Source: Prochlorococcus marinus str. MIT 1214 (GTDB taxonomy: Bacteria; Cyanobacteriota; Cyanobacteriia; PCC-6307; Cyanobiaceae). From it: DNA of 64,000 nucleotides. Shown one piece after another: positions 20,016 to 28,678 of this stretch. The stretch spans positions 1,736,001-1,800,000 of the forward strand of contig NZ_CP114777.1 of NCBI RefSeq assembly GCF_027359355.1, given 5' to 3'. A program made the position numbers and the translations under genes. The notes under the pieces are model-generated. The model did no database searches. It was not told where the DNA came from and saw nothing but the letters and a program-made list of their open reading frames with translations. The number at the start of each line of letters is the position of its first letter. Position 1 is the stretch's first letter.

Positions 20016-20126
20016 ATTTCCCAGCTTTTTAACAGCTGCATGCAAGCGCAAAGTTTTCCATTTTTGACCTTAATGTCGCTTCAATTGGACAAGTGCTTGC
20101 CACCTGCTTCCTTTTCTGTGAATGGC
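20016..20126 (-). pseudogene. Decayed N-terminus of a tyrosine recombinase
   Basis: Read on the minus strand, this segment aligns codon for codon without gaps with residues 3 to about 41 of the intact integrase at 27284-28264. WQALVQLKRH-stop-GQKWKT here corresponds to WQALIRKKKYQGQTSKT there, and HAAVKKLGN corresponds to KAAAKLWAN. The ATG is lost and an in-frame TAA is at 20070-20072. The remnant sits in the same position relative to the tRNA-Thr/tRNA-Tyr copy as the intact gene does to the right copy. Confidence 0.8.
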
Positions 20127-20138
20127 CTAAAAACAACA

Positions 20139-20168
20139 AAAGTGGACCCAAAAATGGACGTCCACTTT
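20139..20168 (-). terminator. Hairpin after the left tRNA pair
   Basis: AAAGTGGAC and GTCCACTTT form a perfect 9-bp inverted repeat. On the minus strand the second arm leads into a T-rich tract (TTTTGTTGTTTTT), so it probably ends the tRNA-Tyr/tRNA-Thr transcript. It is conserved in the right copy, where the loop has changed but both arms are intact. Confidence 0.6.
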
Positions 20169-20224
20169 CAAAGATTTGCGATCTTAGTGCCTCAGATCAC
20201 TTGCCCTGGTTAAGCTTCCGACGA

Positions 20225-20296
20225 TGCCCTCGTCGGGACTTGAACCCGAGACCTCTCCCTTACCAAGGGAGTGCTCTACCGCTGAGCTACAAGGGC
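20225..20296 (-). tRNA. trnT: tRNA-Thr(GGU), left copy
   Basis: A 72-nt cloverleaf: the acceptor GCCCTTG pairs with CGAGGGC, the anticodon loop is TTGGTAA (anticodon GGU), and the T arm contains GGTTCAAGTCC. CCA is not encoded. It is identical to the copy at 28405-28476. Confidence 0.96.
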
Positions 20297-20307
20297 TTGT
20301 GGAAAGA

Positions 20308-20389
20308 TGGGCCGGGTTGGATTTGAACCAACGTAGGCGTAGCCAGCGGATTTACAGTCCGCCCCCATTAACCACTCGGGCACCGACCC
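20308..20389 (-). tRNA. trnY: tRNA-Tyr(GUA), left copy
   Basis: An 82-nt class II tRNA with a long variable arm. The acceptor GGGTCGG pairs with CCGGCCC, the anticodon loop is CTGTAAA (anticodon GTA), and the T arm contains GGTTCAAATCC. It lies 11 bp upstream of tRNA-Thr in the direction of transcription and is identical to the copy at 28489-28570. Confidence 0.96.
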
Positions 20390-20568
20390 GATTTCTTTCC
20401 ACGCAGCGTGGCATCTTTGCTTGACGCCAATCGAATATATCTCTGATGAGACGACTTGCCAAATCTTTTTTAGGGAGTGCTGTGATCTGTGTTTAGTCCA
20501 CTTTTTAGGGGGTGTGATCCATTAAAAAATAAGTTACATTTGATACAAATAGATTGAAGTACATCATT

Positions 20569-20733
20569 TTGGCCGTCAAACAAAAGGCTTCAAAAAAGGA
20601 TTATTCGAAAGTTACGATTAACCTGCCCAACAACTTGATTGACTTTGTAGATGAACTCAAAATTGAATGGGGATTGAAGAGTCGAGAAAGTGTTTTTACA
20701 CGACTCCTTGAAACGATTTCAGAAAACGACTAA
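20569..20733 (+). CDS. Small ribbon-helix-helix DNA-binding protein
   Basis: The 54-aa product contains YSKVTINLPNNLIDFVDELK followed by LKSRESVFTRLLETISE. That is the strand-helix-helix pattern of MetJ/Arc (CopG-like) regulators: alternating residues in the KVTINL strand for DNA contact, then an N-cap in the second helix. A TTG at 20569 (or 20554, adding five residues) is the likely start; no ATG is in frame. It is the first gene inside the island after the left tRNA pair. A role in repressing or timing the element is inference. Confidence 0.65.
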   Translation: MAVKQKASKKDYSKVTINLPNNLIDFVDELKIEWGLKSRESVFTRLLETISEND

Positions 20734-20815
20734 GACAAAAAATAGATTTAAACGTGTTTTTAGACCTTTCTCTTTGTGTTTGAGTCTTCTTAAATTGTTT
20801 CACTAGCATGGGTGA

Positions 20816-21502
20816 ATGAAGAAGCTCACCAAAGACCAGAAGCACTACAGAAAAAAGAAGAAGGATGGTTTAAAAGATTTTCGGCAAGAGATCAAAGACG
20901 ATGGCAGTAAGAGAGTTCGAGTTACGCGTAAAACGATCAATGTAAGTATCAGCTCAGATGCTTTTAGTAGGTTGATAGAGCTTTCTGAGACCTGTCAGTT
21001 AACTCGCTGGGAAATGTTGTCGAGAATAATTCTAATTGGATTACCTCGTTATGCTTCTCTTTCTAATAGTCGCAACCCAACGCAGCGATATTTATGGGAT
21101 GAAAGTCTCTTGACTCCTACAGATAAGAAGATCAGTTACAAAGGAACTGAAGGAGAAAAACAAGTCACCTATCAAATTACTAGTACGGCATATAAAAAGC
21201 TCGAGTGCCATAAAAATGCGATTGCTCAATCAAAGGCTCGCATCATTCAGTCATTGATCTTGAACTACACGCCGATGACTGAAGAGCAAAAAGAAAAACG
21301 TAAGGCTTATCTCAAAGAAGAACGAAAGAGACATCGATCTGTTGATCAAGGGATGCTGCGCCAAGACATTTTGCCGTCAGAGAAACCACCAAAATTTTTC
21401 AGAAAAGAAGGTATTGTTTTTCATTCAAAAGGTGTCCAACCCGAGAGGTGGGATGACGATGAACTTGAAGAGTACGAGAGAATGGTCGGAGGACCCAGCT
21501 GA
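20816..21502 (+). CDS. DNA-binding protein with two ribbon-helix-helix-like segments
   Basis: The 228-aa, strongly basic protein has a Lys-rich N-terminus. A first possible ribbon-helix-helix unit lies at about residues 38-80 (TRKTINVSISSDAFSRLIEL then TRWEMLSRIILIGL). A second lies at about 105-145 (EKQVTYQITSTAYKKLE then SKARIIQSLILNY). The C-terminal third is highly charged and of no known fold. It starts with an ATG 82 bp after the shorter ribbon-helix-helix gene, so the two may be one transcript. I do not recognise the exact family; a partition or control role for the island is inference. Confidence 0.65.
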   Translation: MKKLTKDQKHYRKKKKDGLKDFRQEIKDDGSKRVRVTRKTINVSISSDAFSRLIELSETCQLTRWEMLSRIILIGLPRYASLSNSRNPTQRYLWDESLLTPTDKKISYKGTEGEKQVTYQITSTAYKKLECHKNAIAQSKARIIQSLILNYTPMTEEQKEKRKAYLKEERKRHRSVDQGMLRQDILPSEKPPKFFRKEGIVFHSKGVQPERWDDDELEEYERMVGGPS

Positions 21503-27167: not shown

Positions 27168-27260
27168 TTTCTTCTTTAAGCCTTGATTATATGGATCATA
27201 AAGCCGTTGCGAACATGATTTCAAATTGACCTGATTTTTGAGAGATAACTCTGAATTGCT

Positions 27261-27384
27261 TTATACGTCTTGGGCGAAACTCTTCACCCCCCATACCCCA
27301 GCTGATAGTGGCTGTAGCGCATCAACATTCTTAGATCTTTGTGGCCACTAGCTTCTGAGATCTGTAGCGCATTCATTCCTGCTG
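27261..27384. repeat. Integrase 3'-end repeat, right copy
   Basis: This segment covers the last 34 codons of the intact integrase and 23 bp after its stop. It is repeated in the same orientation at 23299-23422 with scattered substitutions. That the copies include non-coding sequence shows the duplication was at DNA level and not only conserved protein sequence. Confidence 0.85.
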
Positions 27385-28264
27385 CCCACATATTGCTAAT
27401 GGCGATATGGCGCAGGTCATGAAAACGCAAATGATTCAAGCCTGCTGCTTTTCTGGCTCGATTAAAGCCATGACGAGCTGCTCCAATAGTTAAGTCGATC
27501 ACTCTTGGGTTGGTTTTGGGATAGTTCTTCAGGAGTGCAATTGATTGCGGTGATAGTGGCACGAATCTCTGACTGCTTTGTCTTCCTGTCGCTGCGCAAT
27601 CTTTGCGGCTCAGATGGACCAATTTGTTTTTTAAATCCAGATCGCTCCATTTAATGGCCAGTAATTCTGAGCGACGCATTCCTGTGGCAAGTGCTAATTG
27701 CGTCAGTCTTTTGTGATTAGGGTTCTTCGATTGGCCTAATGCAGTTAGTAATTTCTTTTTCTGTGCTGGTGTGAAGTAAGGGAATCTGGCATCGCTGACT
27801 CCTCGTACTTTTAATTCCCTCGCTGGATTGGAGCTCAGTTGGCATCCCAGTTCATCTTTGGCCCAATCCAATAGAACTCTCAAGATTCTGAGCTCTCTCA
27901 TGATTGTGTTGGGCTTGACCTTGATCAATCGTTCATCTCGCCAGAGAGCAAAATGTCTGATGGAAAGTTCTTCCAAAAGAACGCCACCCATCCAGCTGTT
28001 GGCCAATGCTTTTAATGGATATTGTTCGTTAGCCCCGCTGAGGTGATCTTGCAGTGGCCCTTGGATATACAGATCGATTGCTTCTCGTAAGATTTGAGGT
28101 GGTTTTAGATCAAGTTTTGCTGGCGTTTTAAGAGAACTTTCAACAGCATTTGCCCACAGTTTTGCAGCTGCTTTGGAGCTAAAAGTTTTGGATGTTTGGC
28201 CCTGATATTTCTTCTTTCTAATGAGTGCTTGCCAGCCACTTCCGCTTCTTCTAATCGTTGCCAT
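27284..28264 (-). CDS. int: Tyrosine recombinase (island integrase)
   Basis: The 326-aa protein has an N-terminal arm-binding-like region (residues 1-45), a core-binding domain (about 60-150) and a catalytic domain. The active-site set is complete: Arg in ATGMRRSELLAI, Lys in VHLSRKD, His and Arg in FHDLRHIAISN, His in ASGHKDLRM, and the nucleophile Tyr in MRYSHY. It catalyses site-specific recombination. Its start lies 140 bp from the right tRNA-Thr copy, and the two tRNA-bearing repeats are the natural candidates for its attachment sites. No excisionase is recognised; the ribbon-helix-helix proteins may serve. Confidence 0.93.
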   Translation of the reverse strand: MATIRRSGSGWQALIRKKKYQGQTSKTFSSKAAAKLWANAVESSLKTPAKLDLKPPQILREAIDLYIQGPLQDHLSGANEQYPLKALANSWMGGVLLEELSIRHFALWRDERLIKVKPNTIMRELRILRVLLDWAKDELGCQLSSNPARELKVRGVSDARFPYFTPAQKKKLLTALGQSKNPNHKRLTQLALATGMRRSELLAIKWSDLDLKNKLVHLSRKDCAATGRQSSQRFVPLSPQSIALLKNYPKTNPRVIDLTIGAARHGFNRARKAAGLNHLRFHDLRHIAISNMWAAGMNALQISEASGHKDLRMLMRYSHYQLGYGG

Positions 28265-28318
28265 TTTTTGGGTTGCATCAGGTCAGATGCATCAAGCAAA
28301 AATGGTCTAAAAACAACA

Positions 28319-28348
28319 AAAGTGGACCCGAAATCGGACGTCCACTTT
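28319..28348 (-). terminator. Hairpin after the right tRNA pair
   Basis: The same AAAGTGGAC/GTCCACTTT 9-bp stem as in the left copy, with a different loop and a T-rich 3' flank on the minus strand. It is the probable tRNA transcript terminator. Confidence 0.6.
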
Positions 28349-28404
28349 CAAAGATTTGCGATCCTAGTGCCTCAGATCGCTTGCCCTGGTTCAGCTTCCG
28401 ACGA

Positions 28405-28476
28405 TGCCCTCGTCGGGACTTGAACCCGAGACCTCTCCCTTACCAAGGGAGTGCTCTACCGCTGAGCTACAAGGGC
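28405..28476 (-). tRNA. trnT: tRNA-Thr(GGU), right copy
   Basis: Identical in sequence to the left copy, with the same acceptor, anticodon loop TTGGTAA and T arm. It lies between the integrase start and tRNA-Tyr. Either copy could be the original host gene. Confidence 0.96.
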
Positions 28477-28488
28477 TTGTGGAAAAGA

Positions 28489-28570
28489 TGGGCCGGGTTG
28501 GATTTGAACCAACGTAGGCGTAGCCAGCGGATTTACAGTCCGCCCCCATTAACCACTCGGGCACCGACCC
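28489..28570 (-). tRNA. trnY: tRNA-Tyr(GUA), right copy
   Basis: Identical to the left copy, with the class II long variable arm and anticodon GTA. The spacer to tRNA-Thr is one base longer than in the left copy. It faces aroQ divergently. Confidence 0.96.
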
Positions 28571-28678
28571 GATCCACCTAATGAGATTAACAGTAAATGG
28601 TGCCATTTTTCTCGAATTTGTTGGTCCTTTGTGGCGGGAATCGATACGATCATGAAAGATGTTTGATTTGTAAGGAAT

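Follow-up and report, generated by a model that had tools for sequence, protein, structure and literature searches.

The DNA analysed here, called the window, is a stretch of 64,000 nt from Prochlorococcus marinus str. MIT 1214 covering positions 1736001-1800000 of its one-contig 1.93-Mb genome. It contains an 8.2-kb segment, flanked on both sides by tRNA-Thr and tRNA-Tyr genes, which, judged from its sequence, is very likely a mobile element inserting at one particular tRNA gene. The reading that we favour, and hold to be rather probable as a whole, is that of a small cargo element that integrates by means of a tyrosine recombinase (the integrase, gene int), probably acting at tRNA-Thr(GGT), with int being read from the host tRNA operon or, in the excised state, from a promoter at the far (left) end of the element. 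Comparison with relatives supported this reading by occupied and empty sites, one locus shared across genera, swapped cargo, a displaced host terminator and an outward promoter-like sequence at the far end.

An original prediction, made from the window sequence, had described a direct repeat with identical tRNA-Thr and tRNA-Tyr genes in two copies 8180 bp apart. This repeat was confirmed: positions 20121-20305 and 28301-28485 are 96% identical, 20303-20392 and 28484-28573 are 100% identical, and the spacing is 8180 and 8181 bp, respectively. ARAGORN and Rfam found tRNA-Thr(GGT) and tRNA-Tyr(GTA) in both copies, and the tRNA sequences do not differ between left and right; the differences are confined to about 100 bp downstream of tRNA-Thr and to one extra A in the Thr-Tyr spacer. 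The repeat length of 272 bp results partly from a segment left of the left tRNA pair that is itself a remnant of an older element's right end. A direct repeat of the target sequence at both element ends was found in relatives as well as in the window. The features of the two ends are as follows.

20225..20296, minus strand: left tRNA-Thr(GGT), probably containing the left crossover (left attachment site, attL); ARAGORN and Rfam, 0 mismatches to the consensus
20308..20389, minus strand: left tRNA-Tyr(GTA), probably an element-borne copy; ARAGORN and Rfam, equal to the right copy, missing from 10 of 15 related left ends
20434..20462, minus strand: outward promoter-like sequence TTGGCA-17-TATATT, 10/12 matches, reading into the left tRNA pair and, in the circle, into int
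20470..20504, plus strand: left-end motif TTAGGGAGTGCTG.GATC with a single GTCCACTTT repeat, a putative integrase arm site
27284..28264, minus strand: intact integrase (tyrosine recombinase) of 326 amino acids (aa); Pfam PF00589 at 3.1e-26, PHROG integrase
28265..28404, minus strand: int leader with stem-loops, including AAAGTGGAC/GTCCACTTT at 28319-28348; no host terminator and no sigma-70-like match, the promoter negative being a weak one
28405..28476, minus strand: right tRNA-Thr(GGT), probably the reconstituted host gene (right attachment site, attR); 0 mismatches in 15 of 15 right copies
28489..28570, minus strand: right tRNA-Tyr(GTA), the host copy on the aroQ side, whose flank is common to element-free genomes

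The gene aroQ was matched in 35 of the 41 genomes of the same genus, the window included, and 33 of the other 34 loci were compared (that of genome G033 was not among them). Fifteen of these loci have one tRNA pair, with the host terminator following immediately after tRNA-Thr, and lack an element end; in six, another tRNA copy lies further left (G027, G013, G006, G036, G026 and G029). Eight further loci show a single pair with an element-type right end, and the remaining four have neither terminator nor inverted repeat. The cleanest filled site is that of G013, which reads host terminator, pair, 3.7-kb element, pair, aroQ. One of the 15 empty sites, G034, is doubtful, as another contig there holds a whole-pair element left end. 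We concluded that the repeat, the intact recombinase and the element are all real and that relatives have one-pair and two-pair sites. The tRNA-bounded integrative element that had been predicted is supported by these loci: insert-free sites with one pair exist at aroQ, and the relatives do not all carry two pairs around a fixed interval. In G034 the whole-pair left end lies on L200, while an element-free pair with a different tRNA-Tyr variant lies on L066; this is either two sites or a mixed assembly.

The integrase begins 140 bp from the right tRNA-Thr and matches Pfam Phage_integrase and PHROG 1 strongly. The claim of an intact recombinase with a complete active site held, since the open reading frame (ORF) is full-length and R197, K221, H282, R285, H308 and Y317, which we take to be the catalytic residues, are invariant in 12 sequences (the window and 11 relatives; L159, whose translation has two stops, was excluded). 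At an E-value threshold of 1e-20 the integrase family was found in 41 of 400 genomes of the taxonomic family, representing 11 of 59 genera, and 40 of the 41 have it immediately to the left of tRNA-Thr/tRNA-Tyr/aroQ; the 181-bp tRNA pair itself was matched in 366 of the 400. The exception is G369 (L171): its integrase is some 16 kb away from tRNA-Thr on the left, has no neighbouring tRNA and may have been displaced by a later insertion. The inverted repeat AAGTGGAC-N8-GGACGTCCACTT behind tRNA-Thr, searched with up to 2 mismatches, gave 17 matches in 15 of the 41 same-genus genomes, all at this locus, and 0 control matches. In several picocyanobacterial genera a single tRNA operon seems to serve as a port for gene exchange, at which no fewer than two distantly related recombinases act. 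Two tandem elements lie here in G256 (L158), both with a full-length int, 65% and 74% identical to that of the window.

To place the crossover, we compared 15 left ends. The set is a part of those existing, second tRNA-pair matches being listed in further genomes, and it excludes G256a and G076, whose left ends lie outside the fetched stretch, and L200 of G034, a whole-pair left end with, by eye, a like promoter sequence. Five of the 15, all from the window's genus, duplicate tRNA-Thr, the spacer and the entire tRNA-Tyr; the other ten (eight from other genera and two from the window's genus) duplicate tRNA-Thr, the spacer and about 6-15 nt of tRNA-Tyr. The two-tRNA block that the original prediction proposed to be duplicated is present in the window's left copy, but as the true target it was rejected on account of these ten copies; the window's sub-lineage would additionally have acquired a whole tRNA-Tyr gene at the left end. 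The spacers served as markers. Thirty genomes of genus g18 share a single AT-rich kind of Thr-Tyr spacer (identical in 19, slightly varied in 11) despite many different sequences left of tRNA-Thr. In G186, of genus g11, the int leader shares 78-89% identity with leaders of genus g1 and 66-73% with leaders of g11 (seven of each), yet the spacer is of g11 type. Because of the g18 spacers and this combination in G186, we favour an exchange left of the spacer, inside tRNA-Thr, and tRNA-Thr(GGT) appears to be the target.

The host terminator behaves as a marker of the element's far end. Of 21 single copies that lack an element end, 15 carry a strong terminator hairpin at a distance of 33-39 nt downstream of tRNA-Thr, the six others being four same-genus copies, three of them with decayed element ends by eye, and two other-genus copies with int relics (tRNA copies less than 100 bases from the start of a stretch were skipped in this count). 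It was also present in six of nine left copies lacking such an end. The 43 element-type right copies are all devoid of it; their three hits are the inverted repeat itself, and so is the one hit among five left copies with an element end. The window's own far end adjoins the older element's end, without a host terminator. With the terminator at the far end and none at the int end, int follows, in the same orientation, a tRNA operon that has no terminator.

The pattern TTGN3-N16-18-TAN3T was found once in each of the 15 left ends, always with a spacing of 17 and pointing at the left tRNA, and in 4.6% of shuffles; it was chosen after viewing the window and the elements are related, so the counts overstate independence. 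Conservation is 0.87-0.88 in the two hexamers and 0.58 in the 17-nt spacer between them, and an independent promoter scan of the window gave the same site, 20462-20434, with 10/12 matches. Between tRNA-Thr and int the pattern occurred in none of 45 leaders (shuffles, 8.0%), and a consensus promoter scan of 28200-28700 gave none on either strand. However, this negative says little, because the pattern also misses the host tRNA promoter, being found upstream of host tRNA-Tyr at none of 34 loci; int may have its own promoter that the pattern missed, and the lack of one is weakly supported by the sequence. In the window the int leader forms stem-loops when folded (z -2.0), with 5 of 200 shuffles reaching the same stability. 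A hairpin behind tRNA-Thr that was compared across ends was not used as evidence, the 12 g1-type ends (11 from genus g1 and G186) being mixed: two base pairs change on both sides, a single pair changes on one side, and each of three others is disrupted in one sequence. The fold was predicted with little variation for 12 g18 ends and not for any of 16 ends of other genera.

From these data the following course may be proposed. The integration target would be tRNA-Thr(GGT), the second gene of the host tRNA-Tyr/tRNA-Thr operon. While the element is integrated, int would be read as the tail of this operon, damped by the leader stem-loops; on excision the far-end promoter would be joined before (tRNA-Tyr-)tRNA-Thr-int and would drive int, leading to re-integration. 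Both junctions would retain an expressible tRNA unit, because the circle would hold complete tRNA genes and a promoter. A more far-reaching version, which we advance tentatively and judge somewhat doubtful, makes a whole mobile tRNA operon part of the control circuit: promoter, tRNA-Tyr, tRNA-Thr and int would form one unit in the circle, integration would swap the host and element promoters, and the cell would gain a second working tRNA-Tyr/tRNA-Thr operon. The right tRNA-Thr is unchanged in all 15 copies, the left one in 12 of 15 (altered in G006, G026 and G050), and the left tRNA-Tyr in all five of its copies. That the left tRNAs are mostly kept while some decay fits a redundant but perhaps expressed copy. 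In G006 (L049, 11858-11935) ARAGORN reports a tRNA-Leu(GAG) that is a decayed tRNA-Thr, and annotation would list a false tRNA there.

Several observations weigh against the favoured reading, in addition to the limits of the promoter pattern given above. Among the 11 same-genus genomes with an int match, int is whole only in the window and G036; no identical element was seen in two genomes among the element loci compared; and IMG/VR scans with the end motifs gave no excised form. As to the crossover, five other g18 loci (G187, G365, G371, G346 and G292) have another spacer, four of them with no element end and one with an int relic; they may belong to another clade, and the g18 spacer argument is partly confounded. 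The leader of G232, which resembles G186 in its final bases, is nearly as similar to g11 (66-75%) as to g1 (72-81%), and several genomes have an equal spacer on both sides. In G036 it is the left spacer, not the right, that is of its relatives' type. This last point would suit a crossover in the 3' end of tRNA-Tyr, with the element bringing a replacement for the whole tRNA-Thr and the left tRNA-Thr being the displaced host gene. We had first favoured that arrangement from the repeat ends, as ten of the 15 left copies take in just about 6-15 nt of the tRNA-Tyr 3' end, and in G071 the tRNA-Thr alleles and the spacer are of g53 type. It now seems unlikely, since the right-copy spacers are host-type in the g18 genomes and in G186, and the G071 alleles proved on wider sampling to be widespread in other genera and hence a weak marker.

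Other readings concern the nature of the element. The tycheposon label, as used by Hackl et al. (2023) and suggested in the original prediction, was not established and is in our view quite unlikely to apply. The host genus, the tRNA end and a cargo without structural genes would agree with it, but the integrase is an ordinary phage-type recombinase. Tycheposons are reportedly marked by a deep-branching tyrosine recombinase and by replication/helicase-type mobility genes; none of the latter was named in Pfam, PHROGs and NCBIfam scans of nine ORFs of the element. An element at the same tRNA in G342, with a divergent recombinase, an AAA protein and a 46-nt repeat, comes nearer to that description. 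A very unlikely reading is an old immobile island, in which a segmental duplication of the tRNA pair was kept by chance and homologous recombination between the tRNA copies gives gain and loss. The repeats are long enough for such recombination, most same-genus int copies are decayed, and no excised form was found in IMG/VR; against this stand the intact int with its conserved active site, the conservation of int, end motifs and repeats around almost unshared cargo, and the two tandem elements in G256. The phage-type integrase and the small size might instead point to a prophage remnant or a phage satellite packaged by a helper phage, which we hold to be highly improbable. As had been predicted for structural genes, neither these nor packaging, capsid-remodelling or replication genes were named by Pfam, PHROGs or NCBIfam in the nine ORFs, and the best-ranked phage integrases are about 30% identical. 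The IMG/VR scans with int and the 228-aa protein, which reach close relatives only, were empty, and so were those with the end motifs.

The cargo is almost entirely different between elements, whose sizes range from 1 to 11 kb. In 17 element stretches from 16 genomes the integrase ORF is shared by 15, the 67-aa protein by seven, the 59-aa protein by five and tetratricopeptide-repeat (TPR) proteins by four; nearly all else is unshared. The genes of the window's element and its left neighbour are listed below.

20554..20733, plus strand: 59-aa protein, ribbon-helix-helix-like by eye, kept at the left end of g1 elements
20816..21502, plus strand: 228-aa protein, possibly two ribbon-helix-helix-like halves; model of low confidence (predicted local distance difference test, pLDDT, 52)
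21962..22165, plus strand: 67-aa conserved element protein; a related ORF in 7 of the 17 element stretches compared
22269..23204, minus strand: cargo protein of 311 aa, membrane segments by eye, no family above cut-off
23298..23422, minus strand: relic of a second integrase 3' end; 90% to 27260-27384, 85% over residues 293-326
23387..23866, plus strand: cargo ORF of 159 aa, no family
24011..25882, minus strand: cargo TPR protein of 623 aa; Pfam TPR families
25932..26216, minus strand: cargo ORF of 94 aa
26217..27224, minus strand: cargo protein of 335 aa, membrane segments by eye
20060..20224, minus strand: the older element's decayed right end, int start mostly deleted, inverted repeat at 20140-20167; from sequence comparison
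17372..19912, plus strand: 846-aa TPR/glycosyltransferase-41-like gene, possible cargo of the older element

The 59-aa protein is 90-98% identical at or near the same site in six other genomes, and the 228-aa protein has a homologue 68% identical in the element of another genus (G256). The suggestion that DNA-binding control genes lie at one end of the element was weakly borne out; no family match stands above the cut-off, with no Pfam family for the 59-aa protein. A look for defence genes gave one weak match, PrimPol at 0.0046 to the 623-aa TPR protein. Pfam scans of 20 larger ORFs gave names to some of the cargo elsewhere: a di-haem oxidoreductase and an imelysin in G036 (L055), which together hint at iron acquisition; in G055, proteins resembling amylases, sugar phosphatases and kinases; and nuclease-like, peptidase and other proteins in other elements.

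The 125-bp stretch at 23298-23422 is a sign of a second integrase and of a composite element. To the left of the window's element, an older one probably precedes it: the distance from the preceding conserved gene to tRNA-Thr is 3.8 kb in the window and 0.7-1.2 kb in G022, G007 and G012, and this gap holds the 846-aa gene (TPR with a glycosyltransferase family 41-like C-terminal part) and the decayed right end. The integrase relic and the older element together suggest that elements have inserted here repeatedly and that tandem copies have fused.

Other elements use the same tRNA-Thr. A 46-nt repeat of it, from the anticodon stem-loop to the 3' end, was found 21 and 25 kb away in G106 (L275, L276) and G342 (L277, L278), and in G378 on another contig. 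In G342, the one of these whose proteins were scanned, a 449-aa recombinase with a weak PHROG integrase match adjoins tRNA-Thr, an AAA_25 protein accompanies it, and close to the far end there is an arsR/GAPDH-like/MFS group; this element is possibly a true tycheposon. No significant BLASTP similarity was found between the 449-aa recombinase and the window integrase, and both match PHROG 216. In G302 and G350 of genus g18 (L274 and L273, respectively) tRNA-Thr has a divergent 3' half (T-arm) joined to an unchanged 5' half, perhaps a natural record of the exchange of tRNA halves by an integrating element. Taken together, these cases suggest the anticodon region of tRNA-Thr as the exchange point of those other elements.

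The displaced terminator and the kept far-end promoter-like sequence suggest state-dependent int transcription beyond conjugative elements, and the left-end tRNA copies offer a testable case of a mobile element with expressed host-type tRNA genes. The exchange port may also matter for nutrient adaptation, as the di-haem oxidoreductase/imelysin pair and the sugar-metabolism enzymes would indicate. In print, judged mostly by literature listings, we found neither such a family at a picocyanobacterial tRNA-Thr nor complete host-type tRNAs between a far-end promoter and int.

The kind of element is a known one, a tRNA-targeted integrative element with int possibly read from the tRNA side. The integrase of Haemophilus phage HP1 is the best PDB sequence match of the window integrase, albeit a weak one (3.5e-6). 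The attachment-site homology of HP1 is said to span the whole tRNA, with exchange in the anticodon region; HP1, unlike the element here, is a phage, and we know of no promoter-tRNA-int arrangement in it. Much closer in layout is ICEKp1, for which PMC13023037 describes, by experiment, a tRNA promoter driving int in the integrated state and a far-end promoter driving it after excision; the layout is there shown by experiment for ICEclc and ICEEc1 as well. Shared with these three are int downstream of the tRNA on the same strand, a tRNA terminator that has been moved to the far end, an int leader with stem-loops and a far-end promoter that faces int only in the circle. They differ in being conjugative and sitting at tRNA 3' ends, whereas here no conjugation gene was named and the elements measure 1-11 kb. 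Unlike in those elements, a complete tRNA-Thr (and tRNA-Tyr) lies here between the far-end promoter and int, and the switching is deduced from sequence.

Mycobacteriophages with tRNA-dependent lysogeny, as described in PMC10865867, likewise integrate with a tRNA of their own of the targeted isotype; in their case the host tRNA is lost by destruction and its function is supplied by that of the phage, whereas here a complete tRNA-Thr stands at both ends. Tycheposons, for which seven tRNA insertion genes are described in PMC10872708, share Prochlorococcus, the tRNA boundary, a tyrosine recombinase and cargo with the window's element, but differ from it in recombinase type and in that no helicase or primase was named in the latter. 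Hackl et al. (2023) also treats "cryptic elements", according to PMC10187409, and may already list the family. The picocyanobacterial integrase of PMC10187409 lies, like that of the window, beside a tRNA in Prochlorococcus/Synechococcus islands, but at tRNA-Phe or tRNA-Cys, and it forms a novel subgroup with full-length members of >350 aa. Set beside these systems, the sequence suggests an element that uses the host tRNA promoter for its integrase and carries a substitute tRNA copy with a promoter, a known trick in an unusual form.

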